Shown piece by piece: positions 8,089 through 38,396 of a stretch of 39,731 nt of DNA. Every line of letters begins with the position of its first letter. The first letter of the stretch is position 1. Made by a program: the position numbers and the translations under genes. Source of the stretch: Promethearchaeota archaeon (lineage in GTDB: Archaea; Asgardarchaeota; Lokiarchaeia; Sigyniarchaeales; SOKP01); the NCBI GenBank assembly GCA_019894855.1, contig JAGXNS010000005.1, positions 13,703 to 53,433 of the forward strand, written 5' to 3'. The notes beneath the pieces were generated by a model. It did not search any database and was not told the origin of the DNA. It saw only the letters and a list, made by a program, of their open reading frames with translations.

Positions 8089-9102
8089 TTACATCTTAGA
8101 TAACAATTTTTTAGCAACTTCGAACGCATAGTTATAATCGAATACTTTTGTACCTTTAGTTTTTGTTGCTTCTTTTAATATTTCTCCCTCCGAATTTGCT
8201 TTTAAGCGACCTAATGCCAAAGCCCCGATTCCAAAAATTCCTAAAAAAATTTCTTCATTATCGTGTTTTGGAAGTATTCCTTCAATTCCATAGGGGGGAA
8301 CTAAATTGATATCTACTACAATTTTCTTACCATCTAACCTTTCCATAAGATCGCTTGTTAAAATTTCAACACCAGCAGCAGCTAGAGACCAGATAATAAG
8401 CGCATCTTTAGCAACATCATATCTTTGTTCTTTTTCAGGAGCAAAAATCCCTTTAATCTCGGTTGCACCCTCCCCAGCTTCTTCGGTTACTTCTTTAGCA
8501 AGATTTTTTATAAATTCTTCGTTTGATTTATCCCAAGTTTCAATTAAAAATGTATTTAACCCTTCTCTTGCTGCTAATATGGCTGCAATTCTAGCAACCG
8601 GGCCTGCCCCATAGATTACGACTTTTTCTCCTTTTAAATCACTAATTTTATGTATATTTTTAGCATCGTATAAAGTCTTAGCTACAACTGCAGAAGCAGT
8701 AGTATGAGAGCCTCTTGGATCAATTATTACAGGACATTCAAATGGAGGCACTAAGGATTCAATAACTTCCTTGGCGATTTTTTCCCCTTCCTTTACATCA
8801 GATCCCCCAATAAAAAATGTTGTAGGTGCTTTAGGTTTACGTGAAAATATTGCATCTTGGACAAGTTTAGGAACTTGATCCGCAGTCATTCTACTTATTG
8901 GCACAACAATATCAAAACCAGCGTCGTAAGCCATGTTGATGTCAAACGGAGAAGCGTTATCATCCGTGTCAAAAAAATAACAAATCTTATCTGATGTATC
9001 CTTTTTTTTTATTTTAATTGGCGTCAATTCTATTATTGATTTTTTACCGAGAATACTTTCAATTTTATTAGCAATTTCATTATTTTGAGTAATTTTTCTC
9101 AT
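8089..9102 (-). CDS. MtdA/MtdB-type NAD(P)-dependent methylene-H4MPT (or methylene-THF) dehydrogenase
   Basis: 337 residues. After a ~40-residue N-terminal extension it follows the MtdA/MtdB family: YFFDTDDNASPFDINMAYDAG, a TADQVPKLVQDAIFSR region, FFIGGSDVKEGEKIA, then DPRGSHTTASAVV and a Rossmann motif VVIYGAGPVARIAAILAA. The C-terminal LGIFGIGALALGRLK also matches. In methylotrophs these enzymes use NAD(P)+ to oxidise methylene-H4MPT or methylene-THF. With ftr, mch and F420-type mtd nearby, H4MPT is the likelier C1 carrier. Extension and cofactor choice cannot be settled by eye. Upstream genes are two uncharacterised paralogues, downstream is CDC48, and spacings of 54 and 59 nt suggest one transcript. 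Confidence 0.85.
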   Translation of the reverse strand: MRKITQNNEIANKIESILGKKSIIELTPIKIKKKDTSDKICYFFDTDDNASPFDINMAYDAGFDIVVPISRMTADQVPKLVQDAIFSRKPKAPTTFFIGGSDVKEGEKIAKEVIESLVPPFECPVIIDPRGSHTTASAVVAKTLYDAKNIHKISDLKGEKVVIYGAGPVARIAAILAAREGLNTFLIETWDKSNEEFIKNLAKEVTEEAGEGATEIKGIFAPEKEQRYDVAKDALIIWSLAAAGVEILTSDLMERLDGKKIVVDINLVPPYGIEGILPKHDNEEIFLGIFGIGALALGRLKANSEGEILKEATKTKGTKVFDYNYAFEVAKKLLSKM

Positions 9103-9156: not shown

Positions 9157-9888
9157 TTATTTAGATATCTCAACTTCAACCTCTTCTTCATATTCTTTTT
9201 CTATTTCTGCGGTTTTAATAGTTCTTTTGATTTTAATTTGTTCTGTCTCTATGCCTAAATCGTTTGCTAACTTATCAAGGCCTTCAAAGTGTCTTAAATC
9301 GCAAATAAATAACCCCTTTAATTTTTCTCCTTTAATCTCCTTCGCAAGGTTTAAAATATTCATCATCATCCAAGCCTCTCTAACTTTATATCGAATTTCA
9401 TCTTCTTGGGTGTCATAATCTTTTTTGAGATATTCCTTCCATAAAGCTAATTGTTGAAAAAGTTCATCCTCGGAAGGAACACCACCATTTTCTGTAATTA
9501 TCCCTTTGATTCGCTCTTCAAGTGTTTGTAACATATTTCTGTGTTCATTCAATGCGGCAGAAAGATAAAATTCTGCATTTTCAGAGATATCAGCATGTTT
9601 AAATCGAATTCCTTTTTTTTTGAATAAGGTTTTTAGAGGATCGTTAGGATTTAACGGGTCATCCCAAAAATTTGGTTTTTCTTCTAAAGCAAAATCAGGA
9701 GAATATTTTTCTATTAAATTATCGATGAGTTGAAGATATTCTTTGCTAATAAGATGTAATGACCATAGCAAATCTTCCTTTTTTTCTTTAGGAACTTCGA
9801 ACCACCAATCTATTGGAAACTCACTTTCTACCATAATAAGCTTTAGATGCTTCTTTTTTAATGGCTTTAATTCTAACACTTCTGTCAT
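9157..9888 (-). CDS. Uncharacterised protein, paralogue of the gene just upstream (pair member B)
   Basis: 243 residues, soluble, acidic with a Glu-rich C-terminus. I do not recognise the family. The N-terminus EVLELKPLKKKHLKLIM closely parallels EVLDLKPVKNKKIIAYM of the neighbouring protein. Two further blocks align: KKGIRFKHADISENAEFYL with KLGIPYIQVDIPDYAMGYL, and the C-terminal LANDLGIETEQIKI with LRDLGVKVISYT, after a central helical region with W-x-x-x-L. The alternating strand/helix pattern suggests a Rossmann-like or TraB-like alpha/beta fold, but this is weak. ATG at 9888 has GGAG upstream. It lies 24 nt after its paralogue and 54 nt before the methylene dehydrogenase. Confidence 0.6.
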   Translation of the reverse strand: MTEVLELKPLKKKHLKLIMVESEFPIDWWFEVPKEKKEDLLWSLHLISKEYLQLIDNLIEKYSPDFALEEKPNFWDDPLNPNDPLKTLFKKKGIRFKHADISENAEFYLSAALNEHRNMLQTLEERIKGIITENGGVPSEDELFQQLALWKEYLKKDYDTQEDEIRYKVREAWMMMNILNLAKEIKGEKLKGLFICDLRHFEGLDKLANDLGIETEQIKIKRTIKTAEIEKEYEEEVEVEISK

Positions 9889-9912: not shown

Positions 9913-10530
9913 TTAAAATACAATATTTTGAATTGTATGTTTTTTAGTATAGGAAATTACTTTTACTCCCAAATCTCTTAAATTTGCTACAACTTGAGGG
10001 CAAATATCCTCGCAAATATCTTCTTGAACAAAATGTACAAAAGAAACTACTTCATTTTCAAAATGTGTTGTAAAATCTAACATTTTTTTTACGATCCACT
10101 GTGGTCTTAGCTTTAAACTCAAAAAAATCTCTTTTTCTTGAATTTCTTCGCTTAACATGTCAATCCAATTTTTTAGACTTTGTCCTTTGAAAGATTCTCT
10201 ATCACTCATATTGTCGTATTCTTCAAATAATTCATTTTGAAGTTCTTGTTTTTCAACAATATCTTCATAAAGATATCCCATTGCATAATCTGGAATATCT
10301 ACTTGAATGTATGGTATTCCAAGTTTATCTAATGTTTGTGCAAAAGGTGTTTTCTTAAATTCCTTCATATCTACTTGAAAATCTACAGTAACAAAATTAA
10401 CATCTTTCTTTTTAAGAAAATTAGTTAATCTTGATGTATCGTTATTTTGAAAATACCTGCCATTCTCTTTTGAGGACATATACGCTATTATTTTTTTATT
10501 TTTTACTGGTTTCAAATCCAAAACTTCCAA
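9913..10530 (-). CDS. Uncharacterised protein, paralogue of the gene just downstream (pair member A)
   Basis: 205 residues, first gene of the minus-strand cluster. It shares collinear blocks with its 243-residue neighbour (N-terminal EVLDLKPVKNKK, central KLGIPYIQVDIPDYA, C-terminal NLRDLGVKVISYT), so the two arose by duplication and may form a heterodimer. Near the C-terminus there is a small acidic/Cys group, EDICEDICPQV, absent from the paralogue. Start TTG at 10530 is supported by GAGGTG 9 nt upstream and by alignment of the two N-termini. A TATA-like element lies at 10599-10609. Function unknown; gene order suggests a link to C1 chemistry. Confidence 0.6.
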   Translation of the reverse strand: MEVLDLKPVKNKKIIAYMSSKENGRYFQNNDTSRLTNFLKKKDVNFVTVDFQVDMKEFKKTPFAQTLDKLGIPYIQVDIPDYAMGYLYEDIVEKQELQNELFEEYDNMSDRESFKGQSLKNWIDMLSEEIQEKEIFLSLKLRPQWIVKKMLDFTTHFENEVVSFVHFVQEDICEDICPQVVANLRDLGVKVISYTKKHTIQNIVF

Positions 10531-10636: not shown

Positions 10637-10656
10637 TTGATAAGAAAACTTATCAA
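10637..10656. promoter_or_regulatory. Dyad TTGATAAG-N4-CTTATCAA between divergent promoters
   Basis: Perfect 8-bp arms (10637-10644 and 10649-10656) flank AAAA. The dyad lies about 28 nt upstream of the minus-strand TATA element, where an archaeal activator could bind, and about 90 nt upstream of the plus-strand one. A T-rich tract follows on the plus strand, so a terminator hairpin is an alternative, but no plus-strand gene precedes it. Confidence 0.4.
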
Positions 10657-10744: not shown

Positions 10745-10753
10745 TTTATATAG
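10745..10753 (+). promoter_or_regulatory. TATA box of the HTH-HdrA/hydrogenase unit
   Basis: TTTATATAG lies about 100 nt before the ATG at 10854. Archaeal spacing predicts a start site near 10775 and a leader of roughly 80 nt, which is long for archaea and leaves room for control. Confidence 0.5.
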
Positions 10754-10757
10754 TTTT

Positions 10758-10771
10758 ACAACATATGTTGT
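10758..10771. promoter_or_regulatory. Perfect 14-bp palindrome, candidate operator at the transcription start
   Basis: ACAACATATGTTGT is fully palindromic and lies 5-18 nt after the TATA box, between TATA and the expected start site. Repressors in archaea often bind there. A second palindrome with the same TTGT half-site, TTGTTAACAA, lies at 10803-10812 in the leader. The first gene product has an N-terminal winged helix, so autoregulation is a reasonable hypothesis. Confidence 0.45.
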
Positions 10772-10853
10772 CATGAAGAAAAAATAATTTATCAAAAAAA
10801 AGTTGTTAACAAATTAAATTTAGAATAAAAATTCAATAGGAAAGTTCAAAAAA

Positions 10854-13400
10854 ATGGATGTTTATTCAATTTTAGCCAATCCGCTGAGAAGAAAACTCTT
10901 ATACATTCTCGAAGAAGAAGGTTTTATCCCATATACCGAATTAATGGTGAAGTTAGGTGTAGAACAAACAGGACAATTAAATTTTCATTTAAAAAAGCTT
11001 CATAATCTAGTAAGTAAAGATAAGAAATCGTATTATTTAACGGATGACGGTAAAAGAGTTTTAAGGATTATAGGATTAAACAAAAGAATTTTATCTGGAG
11101 AAGAAATAGACTATTTGAAATCAAAAGGGAGTAAAATAAATAGAATAGGTGTTATTATTTGTAATTGTAACACAGAAATTTCAAATGTCCTTAACATTAC
11201 TGCCTTAGAAAACTATATAAGTAAAATAAATAATGTGGTCTCAGTTAAAATCCTTGATAATTTATGTCAAGAAAAAAACCAAGATAAAATAAATAGTTGG
11301 ATTACGGATAACTTCATAAATAAAATTGTTATTGCTGCTTGTTCTCCTAAAACACATCAACATATATTTGAACGTCTTTTTCAAGATATAATTGATCATG
11401 CAAATATTGAGATTGCAAATATAAGAGAACAATGTTGTTGGGTACATTATTCAAGTAAAAAGCATTTTGATAGTCTTTTAACGCTGAAAAAAGCGCAATT
11501 ACTTATAGAAGCCTCAGTTAATCGAGCATGTCTTCAAAAACCAATTAAAATAAAAAGGGTTGAAGTCGAAAAAAGTTGCGCTATTATTGGAGGTGGGATT
11601 GCAGGTATGAACATAGCGTTAAACTTATCTAGGGCAGGCATCAAGTGTTACTTAATTGAAAAGTCTCCTACATTAGGAGGAAAAGTAGCAAGATGGCAAA
11701 AGGTTTCTAACATGGGAGATTGCTCTGCTTGTTTCATCTCTGAATTAATTGGGGAAATTGTAAAAGAAAAAAAAATCGAGATATTGACAAATACGGAAAT
11801 AATAAGTGTATCGGGAGAAGTTGGCAATTTTACTATAGGTTTAATTAAAAAACCTCGTTATATTGATGAAACTAAATGTACAGGTTGCAAGCAATGTATT
11901 GATGTGTGCGCTCAAGAGAAACTTAATATATACGAATTTGGATTAACAAATAGAAAAATAATTCACTTTCCTTTTCAATATTGTTACCCTTATGTCCCAG
12001 TTATTGAAGAAGAAGATATTAATAATTGCCTTGAATGTGGAGTTTGTGAACGTGCTTGTGCAAATAAAGCAATAAATTTAATAGAAAAGCCTAAGGAATT
12101 ACGAATTAAGGTAGGCGCAAAGGTTATAGCTATTGGTTCAGATCTTTACTCAAATTTAAAAGAATATAATTATAATCCTCGAAATGATGTTATAACTTCG
12201 GCAGAATTTGAACGAATTTTATGTTCAGATAGCCTATCTGATGGAAAAATCGTGAAATTGTCTGATGGGAAACCAGTGAAAACAATATCAATTATTCAAG
12301 AAGTAGGATCTTCAAACTATCTATGTGAATATTCGGATATTTTAGCCCTAAAGTATATAGATGTTATTAAAGTAAAGAACACTGATTGTGAAGTTAATGT
12401 TTTTTACGATTTAAGTAAACTAAAAGAAAAAGACGAGATAATATTAAAATCTACTCATTCTAGATTTCTTTACGCAAATAAAGTATCAATTGAGAAAAGA
12501 GAGAATTTTAATAGTGTAATTGCGGATTCTATTGAGTTTCAGAGTGATTTGATTGTTTTAAATCTAAAATTAATTCCAAATAAGGATCTGAAATCTCTAA
12601 GAAAGATTATGGACTTCACATTAAATGATTATGGTTTTATGAGCGAAGAGACTTTAGCTTCTGGTATTTATGGTGTCGGAACAATATTTGGACCATTAAG
12701 TTATCATTCAACTATTGCAACTACCAATAACATAGCGTTAAAAGTAATATTACTTCTTTCAAATGATTATTTAATAACGGAATATACTGGAATAGAGATT
12801 AATGAAGATCGATGTGGGTTATGTAAGCTCTGCGTTAATGCTTGCCCTTACAATGCAATAAGCATAAACTCTGAAAGAATTACTATTGATAAGTTTAAAT
12901 GTAAAGCTTGTGGTATGTGTGTAAGTATTTGTCCTACTAATGCCATCGAAATGAATATAAATACATCAGAGAAAATTTTAAAAACGATTGAAATTTTTTC
13001 AAAATTCAATAAAAAACCAAAAATCATCGCTTTTTGTTGCAAATCGTGCGGTTACGCTGCCGCTGACGATGCAGGATTAAAAAAATTGTTATATCAGCCT
13101 AATGTTTTTATAATCTCTGTTCCTTGTACTGGACGTATTGATACTGAATTCATTATTAAATCTTTTGAAATGGGGTTTGATGGAGTTATGATTATCGGCT
13201 GTAGAAAGGATTCTTGTAGATATATTGATGGGATTGAAAAAATAAGAAAAAGAGTTGGCCTTTTAAAAAAAATTCTAGGACCAAAGTTAAGAAGACGGAT
13301 AATAGTGAAGGGTGTAAACGGAGTAGAAGGACAGACATTTGCTGAAATCTCTACTAAATTTTATAATTTATTAAAGGAGGAGATTAAAAGTGAAGCTTAA
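10854..13400 (+). CDS. Winged-helix / HdrA / MvhD fusion (heterodisulfide reductase A-like flavo-iron-sulfur protein)
   Basis: 848 residues. Residues 1-75 are an ArsR-like winged helix (NPLRRKLLYILEEEG, QLNFHLKKL recognition helix, YYLTDDGKRVL wing). Residues 95-230 are the HdrA N-terminal domain (GVIICNCNTEIS, VIAACSPKTH). FAD site GGGIAGMNIA lies at 246-255, with GGKVARW after it. Four ferredoxin-type [4Fe-4S] motifs follow: C342/345/348/352, C392/395/398/402, C654/657/660/664 and C683/686/689/693. Residues 722-813 are an MvhD domain (C728, C729, C732, C758, C783, C788). HdrA normally bifurcates electrons from H2 to heterodisulfide and ferredoxin with HdrBC; none is encoded here. The hydrogenase small-subunit gene overlaps its end by 11 nt. 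The DNA-binding module on HdrA is odd and suggests a regulatory or promoter-bound role, which is inference. Confidence 0.9.
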   Translation: MDVYSILANPLRRKLLYILEEEGFIPYTELMVKLGVEQTGQLNFHLKKLHNLVSKDKKSYYLTDDGKRVLRIIGLNKRILSGEEIDYLKSKGSKINRIGVIICNCNTEISNVLNITALENYISKINNVVSVKILDNLCQEKNQDKINSWITDNFINKIVIAACSPKTHQHIFERLFQDIIDHANIEIANIREQCCWVHYSSKKHFDSLLTLKKAQLLIEASVNRACLQKPIKIKRVEVEKSCAIIGGGIAGMNIALNLSRAGIKCYLIEKSPTLGGKVARWQKVSNMGDCSACFISELIGEIVKEKKIEILTNTEIISVSGEVGNFTIGLIKKPRYIDETKCTGCKQCIDVCAQEKLNIYEFGLTNRKIIHFPFQYCYPYVPVIEEEDINNCLECGVCERACANKAINLIEKPKELRIKVGAKVIAIGSDLYSNLKEYNYNPRNDVITSAEFERILCSDSLSDGKIVKLSDGKPVKTISIIQEVGSSNYLCEYSDILALKYIDVIKVKNTDCEVNVFYDLSKLKEKDEIILKSTHSRFLYANKVSIEKRENFNSVIADSIEFQSDLIVLNLKLIPNKDLKSLRKIMDFTLNDYGFMSEETLASGIYGVGTIFGPLSYHSTIATTNNIALKVILLLSNDYLITEYTGIEINEDRCGLCKLCVNACPYNAISINSERITIDKFKCKACGMCVSICPTNAIEMNINTSEKILKTIEIFSKFNKKPKIIAFCCKSCGYAAADDAGLKKLLYQPNVFIISVPCTGRIDTEFIIKSFEMGFDGVMIIGCRKDSCRYIDGIEKIRKRVGLLKKILGPKLRRRIIVKGVNGVEGQTFAEISTKFYNLLKEEIKSEA

Positions 13401-14154
13401 ATTTTTAATTACATCCTTAACATCTTGTACTGGTTGTATATCAGCATTAATATCGTTAGATGTATTTCCACAATTTCTTGAGAGATCGAAAATCGAATAT
13501 TTTCCATTTATATCTGACAATTTAGAGATCAAAGAATGCGATGTAGCGCTAGTAGAGGGGTGTGTATCAGAAAAGAATCAAATAGAATATCTTCAAGAAA
13601 TACGAAAAAATGCAAAAAAACTATATGCATTAGGTACATGCTCAGCATTTGAGGGGATTCTTAGTCTCTCAAATAAAAAAGAATCGTATCCTATTTCAAA
13701 GTTTGTAGAAGTTGATGGTATTATACCTGGATGTCCTCCTCCCTCCATACTTTTAGGAAATTGTTTATTGAAGTTAGTTGCGAACAAAAAAATCAAGCTA
13801 AGTTTAAAAAATATGTGTTCTACTTGTCCTTTAAACACCCACGCAAAATTAGATTTACCATTAACTATTGAAAAAATTGTTCCAAAAAACAATGAAATTC
13901 GTTTTCCGGAAGAAAATTTATCGTGTTTTTTAAATGATAGGATTTTATGTTTAGGGCCTATTACTCGAGATGGATGTGGCCATCTCTGCATAAATCAAGG
14001 ATTACCCTGTGAAGGCTGTTTAGGCACGGTTTCAAAGGGTTTTACATCGAATTTAGTCAATTTCTTAAGCCTTTTTAACCTTTCTAAAGATTTAAGAAAA
14101 TATAAAGGGATATATTACAGGTTCTCAAAATCACCTGTAGGAGGGAGGGTTTGA
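13390..14154 (+). CDS. [NiFe]-hydrogenase small subunit, MvhG-like (group 3 type)
   Basis: 254 residues. The proximal cluster pattern is present: C13 and C16 (SCTGC), C84 (LGTCSAFEG) and C115 (GCPPP). Further cysteines at 143, 146, 187, 196, 200, 207 and 210, including GHLC and PCEGC, would bind medial and distal clusters. There is no Tat signal or membrane helix, so it is cytoplasmic and resembles F420-non-reducing hydrogenase MvhG. It relays electrons from the Ni-Fe site to the MvhD domain of the upstream fusion. GTG at 13390 with AAAGGAGGA just upstream overlaps the HdrA gene by 11 nt, which implies translational coupling. The large-subunit gene follows with a 1-nt overlap. Confidence 0.88.
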   Translation: MKLKFLITSLTSCTGCISALISLDVFPQFLERSKIEYFPFISDNLEIKECDVALVEGCVSEKNQIEYLQEIRKNAKKLYALGTCSAFEGILSLSNKKESYPISKFVEVDGIIPGCPPPSILLGNCLLKLVANKKIKLSLKNMCSTCPLNTHAKLDLPLTIEKIVPKNNEIRFPEENLSCFLNDRILCLGPITRDGCGHLCINQGLPCEGCLGTVSKGFTSNLVNFLSLFNLSKDLRKYKGIYYRFSKSPVGGRV

Positions 14155-15455
14155 TGGATAAAGTTGTAGAAGCATGCACAAGGGTTGAAGGTCATGGAAA
14201 CTTAAACATTTATTTAAAAAACGATGAAATTTATCAAACTGAATTGAATTTTTCAGTATTTAGAGGATTTGAAAATATTTTACTAGGTAAAAAGTTATTA
14301 GATATTCCAAAAATAGTATCTAGAATTTGTGGACTGTGCCACGCATCTCAAACAATTGCAAGTTGCAAAGCAATAGAAGATTTATACGGAATAGAACCAT
14401 CACAACGATCAATTTTGCTTAGAAGGCTTTTGTTATCCGGAGAATTAACAAAATCGCACATTATGCATTATTTTTTTCAGTCCTTTCCAGATTTATTGAA
14501 AAAATTTAAAATTAATATTTTAATTAAAGATCCCTATAATTTAATTAATTACAATCCTCATTTAACGACAAATGTTTTTAATTTAATAAAAATTGGTTCA
14601 GAAATAAATAAACTAATAGGAGGAAGGGCACTACATCCAATTACTCCGATTCCTGGAGGACTAATATTTAATCCGACTAGAAAGAGTTTAATTTTTATAG
14701 AAAAATATCTAAAAAAAGGAATTTATTATATAGAAACTATAATTGAAAATTTTATAGATCTATTTTCTGCTTTTGATCCTCCTGCTGAATTTAATCTTTC
14801 TAATCCTATATATATCGGCTTAAAAAATAAAATTGGGTTTGATAGGTATGAAGGAGACCTCAGAATTGAACAAAATGAAACAACTTACGATGATTTTCAA
14901 GCGGAAAATTATTCAAAATATTTTGATAAAGACCCTAATCTTTATGGGATTATGTTTAAGTCGAATTCGAAAAATAAGATTTTAACAGGACCAATAGCGC
15001 GCTATAAGTTAACTCAAAATTATGGGATAGATAAAATATCCGGATATTTAAGCAATTTTGGAAAAAAATGGAAAAGCAATTTATTATTTTTAAACTTTTT
15101 ACAATTAATTGAAATTTATTACGAAATTCAAAAAAGTGTTGAAATATTAGATACTACTTCACTAAAAAGTAAAACAATACTTAAACAACTAAACTCAATA
15201 AAAAAATCAAATGGAATAGGCGTTATCGAAGCACCAAGAGGCATATTAATGCACCATTATCATTTAAATAAAGCTAAAATCGTTGATCAAGTGAAACTTT
15301 TCATTGCAACCGAAATAAATTTGCCTATTCTTAACAAAATGATCACTGAATATGCTAAAAAGTTATATGAAAAAGAAGATATTGATTCTGTTAAAGAAAA
15401 AGTTCAAACTATGATAAGAGCATTTGATCCTTGCATATCATGCGCTTCTCATTAA
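14154..15455 (+). CDS. [NiFe]-hydrogenase large subunit, MvhA-like, without C-terminal maturation peptide
   Basis: 433 residues from ATG at 14154 (TGATG overlap; GGAGGGAGGG at 14140-14149). Family marks: TRVEGHGNLN, FRGFENILLGK, N-terminal metal motif R57-I-C59-G-L-C62, GGRALHPITPIPGG, GVIEAPRGILMHHY and a C-terminal D425-P-C427-x-x-C430-x-x-H433. All four Cys that would hold Ni-Fe are present. Two features are odd. The protein stops exactly at His433, whereas MvhA precursors continue past this His with a peptide cut by an endopeptidase. The conserved His four residues after the second Cys is Gln66. Lack of the peptide is known in H2-sensing HupV/HoxC and in CooH. It oxidises, produces or senses H2 together with the preceding two proteins. 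Confidence 0.88.
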   Translation: MDKVVEACTRVEGHGNLNIYLKNDEIYQTELNFSVFRGFENILLGKKLLDIPKIVSRICGLCHASQTIASCKAIEDLYGIEPSQRSILLRRLLLSGELTKSHIMHYFFQSFPDLLKKFKINILIKDPYNLINYNPHLTTNVFNLIKIGSEINKLIGGRALHPITPIPGGLIFNPTRKSLIFIEKYLKKGIYYIETIIENFIDLFSAFDPPAEFNLSNPIYIGLKNKIGFDRYEGDLRIEQNETTYDDFQAENYSKYFDKDPNLYGIMFKSNSKNKILTGPIARYKLTQNYGIDKISGYLSNFGKKWKSNLLFLNFLQLIEIYYEIQKSVEILDTTSLKSKTILKQLNSIKKSNGIGVIEAPRGILMHHYHLNKAKIVDQVKLFIATEINLPILNKMITEYAKKLYEKEDIDSVKEKVQTMIRAFDPCISCASH

Positions 15456-15512: not shown

Positions 15513-16550
15513 TTGAAAAATAATCTCTTAAATAAGACCAATACAGAGTGTCCATTTGAGGACTTATGTGAGACTCTTTTATTTTATTTTGATGAGACTA
15601 TCGGCCATGTCCCACTTCTTATTTGTCCAGAAAATGCGCTAGATGATGATTCGGGAAAAATGCGCCTTATAAGATACCATCCAATTTGGTTTTTAGAACT
15701 TAAAGATAAAACTACAATTAACCGAATCGATTTAGAAGACTGTAATCAAATGTATTTTGCAAAGAAATTTATTATTGAATCTAAGAGGGTTAAAAGAAGA
15801 GCAGGGTCTTTTCAAAAATTAGGTGAAATAATTGTGTTGATACTTGTGTTACCAACAGATTTAGATGTTTTTGGAGGAGAAGTATTAAACTTATTATCGA
15901 AAAAATTAATCGACAAATTTGAAAATACGCTTTATTATGTAATCGAGTCAGAAATTGCGAAACTAGAAGTTATTAAAACGGAGAAAATAATCAATAAGAT
16001 AAAAAAAGGAGATCAAATAAAAGAAGAAATAAAAGTTCTAATAAACCTTACTTGTGAGGAATATTTTTCATCTGTAATTAAACAAACTGATACAACCTCT
16101 TTCAAATTGCAAAAAGCAATTTCTTATTTAACATTTAAAGGAATCGACATTGACCACATTGTCATAAACAACCAAAATGAATCGTTTTCTAAAATTCGTT
16201 TATTTGATTATGATAGAGTTGTTCAACAAAAATCAAGAATTAAAGATCAATTTAAAATAACGAGTATAAATATTAACAATTTTCAAGAAATAGAAATTTT
16301 AGTAACGAATAACCTTAAAAAGGAATTCAACGATCTCATCATCCGAATTACTTACATTAAAGAATTTTTTGAAAAAGAGGTTTTGAATGAAAAAGTTGAA
16401 AAATACCTTCCCGAAGAAGAATTATTGTTTATTACGTCTGTAATTAAAAATACAACAAAATATTTGTTTTCCATTATCGAAGAACATTCTAATAGAACTA
16501 TTTTTTCAAATAAAATTGATTTAGAATTAATCAGACCTCATTCTTATTAA
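15513..16550 (+). CDS. Longin-like domain protein (tentative), neighbour of a Rag-type GTPase
   Basis: 345 residues. I do not firmly recognise the family. Residues about 20-120 have the pattern of a longin/profilin-like fold: FYFDETIGHVPLLICPE, an aromatic loop, a region ending FAKKFIIESKRVKRRAG and a hydrophobic strand EIIVLILVLPTDLD followed by an amphipathic helix. The C-terminal ~220 residues are charged and helical with a strand pair. The start is probably TTG at 15513; the only ATG upstream (15492) runs into a stop four codons later, and a TATA-like TATAATT at about 15478-15484 would give a leaderless transcript. Its last 20 nt overlap tail-to-tail with the Rag-like GTPase gene, hinting at a functional pair. 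Confidence 0.5.
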   Translation: MKNNLLNKTNTECPFEDLCETLLFYFDETIGHVPLLICPENALDDDSGKMRLIRYHPIWFLELKDKTTINRIDLEDCNQMYFAKKFIIESKRVKRRAGSFQKLGEIIVLILVLPTDLDVFGGEVLNLLSKKLIDKFENTLYYVIESEIAKLEVIKTEKIINKIKKGDQIKEEIKVLINLTCEEYFSSVIKQTDTTSFKLQKAISYLTFKGIDIDHIVINNQNESFSKIRLFDYDRVVQQKSRIKDQFKITSININNFQEIEILVTNNLKKEFNDLIIRITYIKEFFEKEVLNEKVEKYLPEEELLFITSVIKNTTKYLFSIIEEHSNRTIFSNKIDLELIRPHSY

Positions 16551-17487
16551 GATATTCTTTTAATTTTTTGAACTCTTCCCCATTCAAGGAGTCAATTACG
16601 GTCATAAAAGTTTCAGTAGTTTTATTTTTTGTAACAATCATCAACACGGATCCATTACTTACTTCTTTTACTATAATATAATTATTGTCGCTTTCATATA
16701 TGACAGTGGATAATTCTAGAGGGGACAATGGAGAATCTGAAAGATTCATAATCTTAGTAAAAATTTGATATATATTCGATTCAAGCGTTCCTATTTCTAG
16801 CTTCATAAATTGAAGTTTATGATGTAATTCTATTTTTCCTAATGTTGATGCTATTATTAAACCATCCGGTTGATTAAACAAAAAGTACTCGGAGATTGTA
16901 ATAACCTTCAATTGGTCTAGCATGTGCCTTATTTTACCTAGTTTTTGTAGCGCTAAAGTATTTTGTTGGATCTTGTAATCTAAAACTTCAATTAATCTAT
17001 GCTGAGCACTCCCCTCTTTCACCGATACCGGGGTAAAAGAAATTTTAGTTTTCATATCGTCGGTAAGCTTAGCAATAAGAACTTCATAAATTTCGTCTTC
17101 CTTCGATTCCTGAAGATCAGTTTTATTTAGTAAAACATACACTTTCTCGACTTGAGGACTAAATTCAAAGATATACTTCAAAAAATTATCAAAAATTTCT
17201 TTTAAACGAGGTTCGTCTGCTGCTGAATCCACCATGAACACTGCCGTCATAACTTCAGAAAATACAAGCTCTCGTTGTTTTTCAGAGAAGTATCTGTCCA
17301 TGTACAGTTGTTGTCCTCCTAGATCCCAGATGGATAATTCCATAATTCCACGAAAGATAAAATTTTCCCTCGAAACTCCTTTTGTAGGTTTTAAATTGAG
17401 CACTTTCATGAAGTTATATCCTAAACAAGTAGTTCGCAACAGTGATGTTTTGCCTGCGCCACCAGGACCAAATAACAGTACTTTTAT
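16531..17487 (-). CDS. Rag/Gtr-type GTPase with C-terminal roadblock-like domain; apparent AUA start
   Basis: 318 residues if started at ATA 17487. G domain: P-loop GPGGAGKT (7-14), G3 WDLGGQ (54-59), G4 NKTD (121-124). The remaining ~130 residues align in layout with the roadblock/longin domain of RagA/Gtr1 (ISEYFLF... IIAST, then YIIVKEVSNGSVLMIVTKN). Eukaryotic Rags form dimers that signal amino-acid status at lysosomes; here a regulatory switch partner of roadblock proteins is likely. Oddity: the first standard start is TTG at 17439, which would delete the whole P-loop. Upstream the frame runs to a TGA at 17495-17497 without ATG, GTG or TTG. GGTGA (17494-17498) lies 6 nt before ATA. A one-base deletion after ATG 17492 is the alternative. 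Confidence 0.8.
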   Translation of the reverse strand: MKVLLFGPGGAGKTSLLRTTCLGYNFMKVLNLKPTKGVSRENFIFRGIMELSIWDLGGQQLYMDRYFSEKQRELVFSEVMTAVFMVDSAADEPRLKEIFDNFLKYIFEFSPQVEKVYVLLNKTDLQESKEDEIYEVLIAKLTDDMKTKISFTPVSVKEGSAQHRLIEVLDYKIQQNTLALQKLGKIRHMLDQLKVITISEYFLFNQPDGLIIASTLGKIELHHKLQFMKLEIGTLESNIYQIFTKIMNLSDSPLSPLELSTVIYESDNNYIIVKEVSNGSVLMIVTKNKTTETFMTVIDSLNGEEFKKLKEYLNKNEV

Positions 17488-36205: not shown

Positions 36206-36598
36206 CTAATCTACAATGTTACTAAGTGATTTTGGTGGGTTAGCCGAAAAATACGTCTTAATGGAAGGAATATCGAGCTCACTTAAAGCTGCATCTTTTT
36301 TACACGATGCTACTAAGATGCCATTCTGATTGATCTGTTGTATTAAGACTAATCCATTACTACAATCAACCAAAATTCGTTTTAAATTGCTCTCCGTTAT
36401 CTCGCTAATAAGTTCTTGACCTATATATTTCAAAGCCGTACACATTCCGGATACAAGAGTTTGATCGGTAAATCCAGTAGTAGACGATGCGAGGGCAATT
36501 GGTAATCCTTCATTATTCACAACAATGAGATCGTTAATTTCATCATTTTCATTACACAAATATTCTAAATGTTCTGCTAAATCAGAATTCATGAACAT
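36206..36598 (-). CDS. Roadblock/LC7-domain protein
   Basis: 130 residues forming a single roadblock domain: EINDLIVVNNEGLPIALASS, then a long helix, a strand RILVDCSNGLVLIQQI and GILVASCKKDAALSEL. Such proteins dimerise and bind small GTPases of the MglA or Rag type; both a Rag-like and a Ras-like GTPase are encoded in this window. ATG at 36598 or 36592. Upstream of the radical SAM gene on the same strand with a 94-nt gap, and separated from the FrhB-like gene by 299 nt. Confidence 0.85.
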   Translation of the reverse strand: MFMNSDLAEHLEYLCNENDEINDLIVVNNEGLPIALASSTTGFTDQTLVSGMCTALKYIGQELISEITESNLKRILVDCSNGLVLIQQINQNGILVASCKKDAALSELDIPSIKTYFSANPPKSLSNIVD

Positions 36599-36897: not shown

Positions 36898-37839
36898 ATG
36901 AAGATTGAAAAATCAAGTCAAGATCTTGAAAATGAAGTTATTTATGGAGGGTTATGCATTCATTGCGGAAGTTGTAATGCTTTCTGTCCACACATGGATT
37001 TTAATAAAGAAACAGGGTTAGCATATGTAGTAGATGAGTGTGCTGAGACTGTAGGCTTGTGTTATAATGCATGTCCCCGCAGTTTTCTACCGATTTCTGA
37101 AATCGAGCAAAAAATGTTCGGTCAAACACGCGCTGATTTAGGAGTAGGAGTTTATAAAGATATAATCCAAGTAAAATCTAAAAATAAAGATAAAATTCTT
37201 TATAATTTAGTCTTAGCTGCTTTTGAATCTGGTGTAACAAAACATTTTGTTTTAGGAGAACCTAAAAGCCAAAAACCACCTGTGTCCTTTCCTGTGGTTG
37301 TTGACAGTGCAAGTGATGCGAAAAAATACATTCCCGAAAAAACTATGGATATGGTCGGTCCTTTGGTTACAGGAATTGGCAAAGCTTACTTAGACAGGAA
37401 GAGGGATATCGGTATTATCGGAAACCCTTGCCATCTTCAAGGACTCGCTAAGATACTAACAAGTGACTTTAACACAGGAGCGGAAAGAACTACTCTAAAA
37501 ATAGCCTTTGCTTGTTCCTCTGGTGGAATGGCAGGGTGTAAATATTGCACTGATTTTTCTGGTGAATTTTCAGATATTTCTTATAGCCCATGGGGCGCTC
37601 CAAAAGGCTCAGAAGAAGCATTTTTAATAATAAGAACGGATATTGGGCAAAAAGTTGTGGATCACGCGATAAAAGAAAAATTGATCGAAATAACGAGTAA
37701 AGAACCAGACCTTAGCGAGATGAAGAAATTCCTTAATAGGAAAAGAAGGAAAAACTTTATAAATTTACTAGGTAAAGACTTAATTACAGCTAAATATCTT
37801 CAATTGAATGTTGATGAATTTAGAGATATTCTTGAATAA
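36898..37839 (+). CDS. FrhB/FpoF-family coenzyme F420-oxidoreductase beta subunit
   Basis: 313 residues. N-terminal Fe-S cysteines C20, C23, C26 and C30 (GLCIHCGSCNAFC) plus C48, C55 and C59 (CYNACP). Then the FrhB core: VVVDSASDAKKYIP, GNPCHLQGLAKIL, and CxxxxxGGMAGCKYCTDFSGEFSDISYSPWG near the C-terminus. It binds FAD and exchanges electrons with F420. It could link F420H2 from Mtd to the HdrA/hydrogenase proteins or ferredoxin, but it stands alone here. A C-terminal basic stretch (NRKRRKN) is odd. ATG 36898. Ends in a palindrome shared with the convergent small GTPase gene. Confidence 0.85.
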   Translation: MKIEKSSQDLENEVIYGGLCIHCGSCNAFCPHMDFNKETGLAYVVDECAETVGLCYNACPRSFLPISEIEQKMFGQTRADLGVGVYKDIIQVKSKNKDKILYNLVLAAFESGVTKHFVLGEPKSQKPPVSFPVVVDSASDAKKYIPEKTMDMVGPLVTGIGKAYLDRKRDIGIIGNPCHLQGLAKILTSDFNTGAERTTLKIAFACSSGGMAGCKYCTDFSGEFSDISYSPWGAPKGSEEAFLIIRTDIGQKVVDHAIKEKLIEITSKEPDLSEMKKFLNRKRRKNFINLLGKDLITAKYLQLNVDEFRDILE

Positions 37840-37850
37840 GAGTCATAAAT

Positions 37851-37874
37851 GAGTTAAATTAACTCTCTTTTTTT
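37851..37874. terminator. Palindrome plus T-run between convergent genes
   Basis: GAGTTAA-A-TTAACTC (37851-37865) is followed by a C and a run of T on the plus strand. It lies after the FrhB-like stop and includes the stop region of the small GTPase gene. The loop is tight, so the T-run may do most of the work. Confidence 0.4.
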
Positions 37875-38396
37875 TAAAATTGCTTCAACTAGAGTTTCAA
37901 AAACATTAGCGTTATTATCTCCGGTTTTAGAGCTAGTCTCTATCAGAAAAGGTATATTGTGTTCGTTCTTGAATTCTTCTGCTTCTTCTTTTTTTACAGT
38001 TCTTCTTGATTCTGAAAGATCGGCTTTGCCTCCTACCATGATGAAAATCGGATTTGTTGTATTATTTTCTACGACATCGTACCATTCTTGAAGGTTCTGA
38101 AAGCTCGTATATCTCGAAATATCGTAACAGAGTAAACAACCTTGAGCTCCTCTAGAATAGTTCGGCAAGAAGAATCTGAACCTTTTTTCGCCAGCAAAAT
38201 CCCATATTTGAAGCTTAATATCAGTATTATCTCTTGTTGTGCTCCATGTCAGCAAATCTGTCCCAATCGTAATTTTCATGGGTACGAAATGGCCGGTAAT
38301 AAGCCTCTGTATCATAGTACTCTTTCCCACACCACCATCACCTACTACAACGATTTTAAATAAAAATTGGCGTTTTTGATTAGATTGTTGTGACAT
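37854..38396 (-). CDS. Ras/Rab-like small GTPase with altered G3 and G4 motifs
   Basis: 180 residues. P-loop GDGGVGKS (19-26), G2 Thr in KITIGTD, G3 DFAGEKRF (66-73), G4 region MVGGKADL (120-127) and G5 ETSSKTG. Two key positions differ from Rab/Ras: the catalytic Gln of DTAGQE is Glu70, and the Asn of NKxD is Gly123. No C-terminal cysteine for prenylation. It should bind a guanine nucleotide, but hydrolysis and base recognition may be weak or need a partner. Probably works with roadblock or longin proteins encoded near. ATG at 38396. Confidence 0.88.
   Translation of the reverse strand: MSQQSNQKRQFLFKIVVVGDGGVGKSTMIQRLITGHFVPMKITIGTDLLTWSTTRDNTDIKLQIWDFAGEKRFRFFLPNYSRGAQGCLLCYDISRYTSFQNLQEWYDVVENNTTNPIFIMVGGKADLSESRRTVKKEEAEEFKNEHNIPFLIETSSKTGDNNANVFETLVEAILKKRELI

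Follow-up and report, generated by a model that had tools for sequence, protein, structure and literature searches.

A winged helix fused to HdrA and MvhD beside a [NiFe] hydrogenase: a probable hydrogen- or redox-responsive gene switch in Asgard archaea

We describe a gene of an Asgard archaeon (Promethearchaeota archaeon, GenBank assembly GCA_019894855.1) whose product joins a winged-helix domain to the flavoprotein HdrA and to MvhD, and which is probably a gene switch answering to hydrogen or to the redox state of the cell. The gene lies in a stretch of 39,731 nucleotides (contig JAGXNS010000005.1; G000:C126:13703-53433 in our dataset), hereafter the window, from an assembly of 2.54 Mb estimated to be 83.65% complete. 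Lokiarchaea and some other Asgard archaea carry this fusion of a DNA-binding domain with hydrogenase-type electron wiring. We consider it reasonably probable that the protein is a one-component H2- or redox-responsive transcription regulator, with a [NiFe] hydrogenase as its sensor, controlling its own operon and a second one linked to one-carbon (C1) metabolism. The genes that carry this argument are the following.

10854-13400, plus strand: fusion gene, comprising a winged helix (residues 1-75), a linker, HdrA (97-713) and MvhD (722-841); open reading frame, Pfam, NCBIfam and structure matches.
10857-11072, plus strand: winged-helix domain DUF7347 (residues 2-73); Pfam, model and fold search.
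13017-13376, plus strand: MvhD/FlpD domain (residues about 722-841); Pfam and structure matches.
13390-14154, plus strand: MvhG-like small hydrogenase subunit; Pfam and NCBIfam.
14151-15455, plus strand: MvhA-like [NiFe] large subunit, with the L1 motif RICGLCHASQ (Gln for His) and the L2 motif DPCISCASH at its C-terminal end; Pfam, NCBIfam and structure match.

The fusion gene is an open reading frame of 848 residues that starts with ATG and runs without interruption. Its N-terminal residues 2-73 match DUF7347, an ArsR/MarR-type winged helix, above the Pfam cut-off (E value 5.9e-11). The best of five structural models of residues 1-96 reached a predicted local distance difference test (pLDDT) score of 87.5 (the others 84.4 to 57.4), with the order helix-helix-helix-helix-strand-strand-helix, and its best Protein Data Bank folds in Foldseek were ArsR/MarR/HxlR winged helices at probability 1.00 and template modelling scores of about 0.5-0.7 (best E value 1.2e-3, none at or below 0.001), the nearest being NolR with DNA, CadC, YodB and the archaeal 1ub9 and 1y0u. 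Pfam, the model and Foldseek agree on the fold of winged-helix transcription factors, and a chance Pfam match was rejected on the same three grounds; a candidate recognition helix spans approximately residues 39-52. A DUF7347-like domain also occurs elsewhere in the same genome (G000:C115), with 39% identity over residues 2-73. Solved HdrA chains match residues 96-713 with E values down to 4.8e-103, and the features of the family are present, namely the FAD-binding domain and the N-terminal, inserted and C-terminal iron-sulfur cysteine motifs. The HdrA2 model NF040770 covers residues 97-842 with 548 bits, under its curated cut-off of 1100, and the HdrA part is thus a relative rather than the enzyme for which the model is named. 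FlpD/MvhD was matched at residues 724-841 (E value 2e-33).

These results bear out most of a preliminary description of this DNA, which had proposed an unbroken winged helix-HdrA-MvhD frame with an ArsR-like fold in residues 1-75. Its MvhD domain, placed at residues 722-813, is indeed present and begins near 722 but extends to about 841. The overlap that it had noted between the fusion gene and the hydrogenase genes behind it amounts to 11 bases with MvhG, and MvhG in turn overlaps MvhA by 4. As it had also reported, no member of the HdrB or HdrC families was found among the window genes scanned, a survey that leaves part of the window's reading frames unscanned and did not search the rest of the genome for them; an HdrABC-MvhAGD complex is thus not encoded in the operon or the scanned neighbours. 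Archaeal HdrA-MvhD fusions with MvhD at the HdrA C-terminus, noted there as known, are already in print (PMC11237513), and the main text of that article has no match for "helix-turn", "HTH" or "winged".

The same architecture was found in at least 56 of the 227 genomes of the phylum, 55 of which show the N-terminal part (G123 shows a C-terminal piece only), so that the fusion is not an artefact of assembly; a frameshift origin was likewise ruled out, the frame being open in dozens of genomes. It is encoded from residue 1 or 2 in 26 named contigs, 25 titled Lokiarchaeota or Lokiarchaeia and one Sigynarchaeota, the copies in loci L064 and L065 being cut by contig ends. The other HdrA matches listed start at about query residue 46-98, one at 144, with no winged helix in the part matched, and several of those starting early run across stop codons. 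In a tree built from 23 fusions and 18 HdrA-MvhD proteins lacking the helix, both hand-picked from longer lists, all the fusions fell on one side of a single branch (100/100), although the tree tool warned of long branches. A single origin is the simplest reading, under which the sampled fusions would form one clade.

Conservation was compared over 47 loci, comprising the window, the 26 named contigs and 20 further stretches; L061 and L087 are one sequence, retained in all counts, so that 46 are distinct. Mean pairwise identity is 0.638 in the winged helix, 0.54-0.68 in the HdrA parts, 0.61 in MvhD, 0.55 in MvhG and 0.435 in MvhA; by this measure the DNA-binding end is as well conserved as the flavoprotein, and the large subunit drifts most. 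The cluster cysteines of HdrA and MvhD are invariant or nearly so across loci.

Downstream of the fusion, MvhG is found in 45 of the 47 loci and MvhA in 44, always on the same strand, the gaps being contig ends. The four nickel-binding cysteines of L1 and L2, which define a [NiFe] hydrogenase, are present in 43 of 43 aligned rows at each position (rows with a gap or X at a position are excluded from residue counts); the Glu of RxEG is kept in 41 of 42 rows and the Arg of APRG in 44 of 44, and the last residue of L2 is His in 39 rows, Val in three and Gln in one. The closest models of MvhA are of the Shy/Vhu/Frh types, the group 3 kind, and its closest structures of the Mvh type. Its L1 motif reads CGLCxxSQ, with Gln where the solved 5odc_F and 7t2r_D keep the His of CGxCxxxH; this Gln is found in the window and in 34 of the 43 rows. 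Within the same genus (30 loci), another [NiFe] hydrogenase has CGICPIPHH in 18 of 18 loci and the partner of the fusion has Gln in 12 of 12. MvhA stops right at the last residue of L2 in the window and in 32 of the 43 rows, the other 11 having 6-11 extra residues, and the chains 5odc_F, 9sw2_F and 7t2r_D extend 24-25 residues past the aligned end. According to two reports, Gln for His characterizes H2-sensing regulatory hydrogenases (RH; PMC5665086), which lack the C-terminal extension of the large subunit (PMC8229454). By these two published traits of bacterial H2-sensing enzymes, the partner hydrogenase looks sensory in most rows.

The upstream regions of the fusion genes share an inverted repeat, TTGAYAA-N6-TTRTCAA, two copies of which lie in the divergent promoter region of the window.

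10637-10656, no strand: candidate operator 1, TTGATAAGAAAACTTATCAA, agreeing at 14 of 14 consensus positions, 106 bases before the start of the divergent gene u205.
10745-10753, plus strand: TATA-like element TTTATATAG before the fusion gene, read by eye from the sequence.
10755-10774, no strand: candidate operator 2, TTTACAACATATGTTGTCAT, 12 of 14 positions, directly after the TATA-like element and before the start of the fusion.

The best repeat scores at least 13 of 14 in 33 of the 47 fusion upstream regions, with a mean of 12.72, where dinucleotide shuffles give 10.24; for L051, L056 and L060 the start codons were set by hand. The signal peaks at a spacer of 6 only, all other spacers from 0 to 13 giving means of 10.2-11.1 over the 47 regions, and 23 of these regions hold two or more sites scoring at least 12, against 0.05 expected from shuffles. 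Of the 18 intergenic stretches compared within the window, that of the divergent promoter scores 14 and the others 8-12. Exact 20-mers, tallied by hand across the 227 genomes, number 51 against 11 in a reversed control in the 56 genomes with the fusion, and 56 against 35 in the remaining 171; of the 51, 27 sit at the promoters of the fusion, of neighbouring HdrA or FrhB genes or of u205. The repeat is also found beside the HdrA gene divergent from the fusion operon in L055, L067, L163 and L164. A palindrome, ACAACATATGTTGT, had been considered as the operator core and was dropped in favour of the spaced repeat, which recurs in relatives. Scans for sigma-70 promoters and terminators, which are not suited to archaea, gave no excess.

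Some exact sites were set aside. A second exact 18-mer in the window's own genome (C79:7361) looks like chance, since it lies inside an open frame and the reversed control gives three matches. Those in L151-L157 and L167-L170 lie inside reading frames or before genes, among them a glycosyl transferase (L153) and a nitronate monooxygenase (L156), and were treated as background, some adjoining genes being unnamed. Another exact repeat lies just past the 3' end of a Cdc48-like gene (L162:6200-6219), with no obvious target.

Candidate operator 1 faces a divergent operon that we predict to be a target.

9913-10530, minus strand: u205, divergent gene, predicted target, co-occurring with the fusion.
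9157-9888, minus strand: u243, fused in frame to the MtdB-like gene in some relatives.
8089-9102, minus strand: MtdB-like methylene-tetrahydromethanopterin dehydrogenase, predicted target (Mpt_N domain, E value 8.6e-26; no NCBIfam match).

Matches to u205 of at least 85 bits occur in 46 of the 227 genomes, all 46 of which carry the fusion. Of 24 such copies that lie apart from the fusion, 14 have within 300 bases a site scoring at least 13, and the mean over the set is 12.75 where shuffles give 10.33; nine of the 14 share a contig with the fusion at a distance of about 4-11 kb, and five are on other contigs. The 24 comprise all matches at that threshold away from the fusion, apart from a fragmentary one where a contig begins (G080:C235), and they leave out second copies standing in tandem next to the fusion. 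None of seven low-scoring u205 paralogues tested, six of them in genomes without the fusion, reaches 13. In the window u243 and the MtdB-like gene are separate, and they form a single frame of 553-558 residues in L055 and L162, so that u243 may serve the dehydrogenase as a partner domain. A weak similarity links the proteins u205 and u243 (23%, E value 9e-4 for a single comparison). In L225, L226 and L228-L230 two tandem u205-u243-MtdB-like sets stand beside the fusion, with candidate sites scoring 13 of 14 also before the second set.

Several observations weigh against this reading. In the window's own genome the repeat is no rarer than its reversed control, the exact 20-mer occurring once (in the divergent promoter) against once, the 18-mer twice against three times and the 20-mer with one mismatch 18 times against 13, so the case for an operator rests on its place and on the relatives. 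Fourteen of the 47 fusion regions lack a site of at least 13: in L054, L055, L057 and L067 a site precedes an extra gene now standing before the fusion (of the FrhB family in L055), and none was found in the loci of families f4, f5 and f26 (L063, L068, L072-L077), in L080 (f18) or in L058. Among the 24 u205 copies away from the fusion, ten score 11-12, and the set also reaches 13 at spacers of 12 (seven copies), 9 (three) and 8 (one). The seven paralogues were drawn from 21 listed matches under 85 bits, with extrapolated starts and, in one, 47 bases upstream; two other such matches (G076, G077) adjoin the fusion and do have a site. The consensus was first derived from the fusion upstream regions themselves, many of the 47 loci being close relatives, and the u205 set, the genome counts and the spacing control are partly independent of it. 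As for the hydrogenase, nine of the 43 rows, from deeper lineages with the same fusion (families f18, f20 and f26), have His, so Gln is not required for the role of the fusion, and the Gln of RH seems to play no part in the sensing of H2 as such (PMC5665086). Finally, the model of the full-length fusion (pLDDT 58) is too poor for use and does not reveal how the winged helix might be coupled to HdrA.

The order of electron transfer in the methanogen MvhAGD-HdrA complex, from MvhA through MvhG and MvhD to HdrA, is known. By analogy, H2 would be split at the [NiFe] site of MvhA, and electrons would pass through MvhG and the cluster of the fused MvhD to the flavin and iron-sulfur clusters of HdrA. 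The operon encodes neither HdrB nor HdrC. HdrA would take its charge from H2 and from ferredoxin or perhaps, in operons that start with an FrhB-type gene, from F420, and a change in this charge might shift the position or the dimer geometry of the N-terminal winged helices. A winged-helix dimer would bind the inverted repeat, and redox input would lift repression of the fusion and u205-u243-MtdB-like operons. Repression is suggested by operator 2 lying directly after the gene's own TATA-like element and operator 1 near the divergent operon, the sign of the effect being a guess. What rests on observation is the fusion, the conserved gene trio, the retained cofactor ligands and the conserved repeat of constant spacing, which also accompanies copies of the u205 operon away from the fusion; we infer that the protein binds DNA, that electrons flow as described, that H2 is the signal and that the effect is repression.

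The preliminary description had left the choice between a redox enzyme that sits on DNA and a sensor with borrowed HdrA-hydrogenase wiring. Both would fit the anatomy, and the evidence leans to the sensor or regulator, given the candidate operator at the divergent promoter and at u205 operons elsewhere and the two H2-sensor traits. The ligands of the enzyme are kept, which makes catalysis equally possible, and a working H2-oxidizing, ferredoxin- or F420-reducing HdrA-Mvh that also binds DNA and, like PutA, autoregulates its own and a few other operons would overlap with the regulator favoured here; the conserved cofactor ligands, catalytic Arg and Glu, and the gene of an FrhB-family F420 flavoprotein before the fusion in L055 and L058, are what such an enzyme would have. 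It is nonetheless a rather unlikely account, because HdrB and HdrC are missing from the operon, MvhA is the fastest evolving part and the winged helix among the slower ones, and most rows combine Gln in L1 with the missing C-terminal extension.

A second rival, which also overlaps with the favoured reading, is a switch that follows the redox state of ferredoxin or F420, in which the hydrogenase discharges electrons rather than senses and the signal is something other than H2. The ferredoxin-type clusters of HdrA are kept, hydrogenases of this class are reversible and some operons include an FrhB-type gene, but the hydrogenase has sensor-like features and its subunits are retained in all 44 loci whose sequence extends far enough; we regard this alternative as unlikely. 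DNA binding by the fusion being itself inferred, the winged helix might serve merely in protein-protein contacts or dimerization, the repeat belonging to another regulator; the similar domain at G000:C115 and the own-genome counts would suit such a view, and another DUF7347 protein could read the repeat. The occurrence of the repeat at the promoters of both the fusion operon and the co-occurring u205 operon, even where the latter lies elsewhere, and an excess of exact sites mainly in genomes with the fusion make it improbable. The favoured reading remains that of a one-component regulator fed by its own hydrogenase.

Compared with the MvhAGD-HdrABC complex of methanogens (5odc, 8rvu), likeness is evident in HdrA (E value 4.8e-103 to 8rvu_a), MvhD (3.6e-22 to 5odc_D) and MvhA (1.4e-48 to 5odc_F), whereas the fusion adds the winged helix and unites HdrA and MvhD in one chain, and MvhA lacks the 25 residues that 5odc_F has past the aligned end and mostly has Gln in L1. 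The regulatory hydrogenase HoxBC, acting with the kinase HoxJ and the regulator HoxA (group 2b), shares the Gln for the active-site His and the absence of a C-terminal extension. The Asgard system is in contrast archaeal, has Shy/Vhu/Frh as its closest models and is wired through MvhD and HdrA to a DNA-binding domain in the same chain; there is no kinase among the operon genes and, judged by closest models and structures, the hydrogenase probably lies outside group 2. PutA, a proline flavoenzyme with a DNA-binding domain that is autoregulated by its own redox state, is likewise a metabolic flavoprotein joined to such a domain, but differs in folds, substrates and domain of life and is not fed by a hydrogenase. 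SurR of Thermococcales, an archaeal regulator of energy metabolism that answers to sulfur and redox through a thiol switch, is a redox regulator without an HdrA or hydrogenase module. HdrR of Methanosarcina barkeri, an archaeal transcription regulator tied to heterodisulfide reductase, is by the title of its report (PMC11218639) a separate regulator of the hdrBCA operon and not part of HdrA. In the available text on HydDB (PMC5037454), group 2b is described as H2-sensing, 2c as putatively sensory, 2d as possibly regulatory and [FeFe] group C as likely regulatory, and group 3 is not called sensory. Among the matches listed in the open-access literature, a coverage that excludes most subscription journals, there was no HdrA-winged-helix fusion and no archaeal H2-sensing transcription regulator. 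The novelty of the system is accordingly provisional.

Several neighbouring genes complete the picture of these loci.

15513-16550, plus strand: u345, co-directional after MvhA, its membership of the unit being uncertain; it follows MvhA in 15 of the 47 loci, some copies truncated.
16531-17439, minus strand: Gtr/Arf-like GTPase, overlapping the end of u345.
36206-36598, minus strand: Roadblock protein.
36898-37839, plus strand: FrhB/FdhB-family protein (C-terminal domain, E value 2.6e-14) with a ferredoxin-type stretch.
37854-38396, minus strand: Ras-family GTPase.

The two GTPases and the Roadblock protein are Asgard-typical, and the window also encodes the tetrahydromethanopterin C1 genes Ftr, F420-dependent Mtd and Mch. 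In L055 (4279-6195, minus strand) the HdrA gene that is transcribed away from the fusion operon, with candidate operators in the DNA between the two, is split by one in-frame TGA and is probably a selenocysteine HdrA. In L162 (4331-5782, plus strand) an FrhB-family flavoprotein bears a C-terminal TrmB-type helix-turn-helix (Pfam TrmB, E value 1.8e-5, 25.0 bits against a cut-off of 25.6), a possible further case in the same lineage of a redox enzyme joined to a DNA-binding domain.

Asgard archaea are discussed as H2-producing or H2-dependent syntrophs and as relatives of the ancestor of eukaryotes, and to our knowledge how they sense H2 is an open question. What appears to be new here is a conserved candidate operator accompanying the fusion. 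The candidate sensor, the DNA site that it would read and the operon that it would control are specified closely enough to be tested in vitro. We see about even chances that archaea have here their first H2-sensing transcription regulator, which would also be the first H2 sensor of one-component design and in which hydrogenase electrons would enter the DNA-holding protein directly, with no kinase or second messenger, the HdrA bifurcation module serving as a signalling wire of one old origin in several Asgard lineages. If this is true, regulatory hydrogenases would extend to the archaea and to a design that leads directly from enzyme to DNA.

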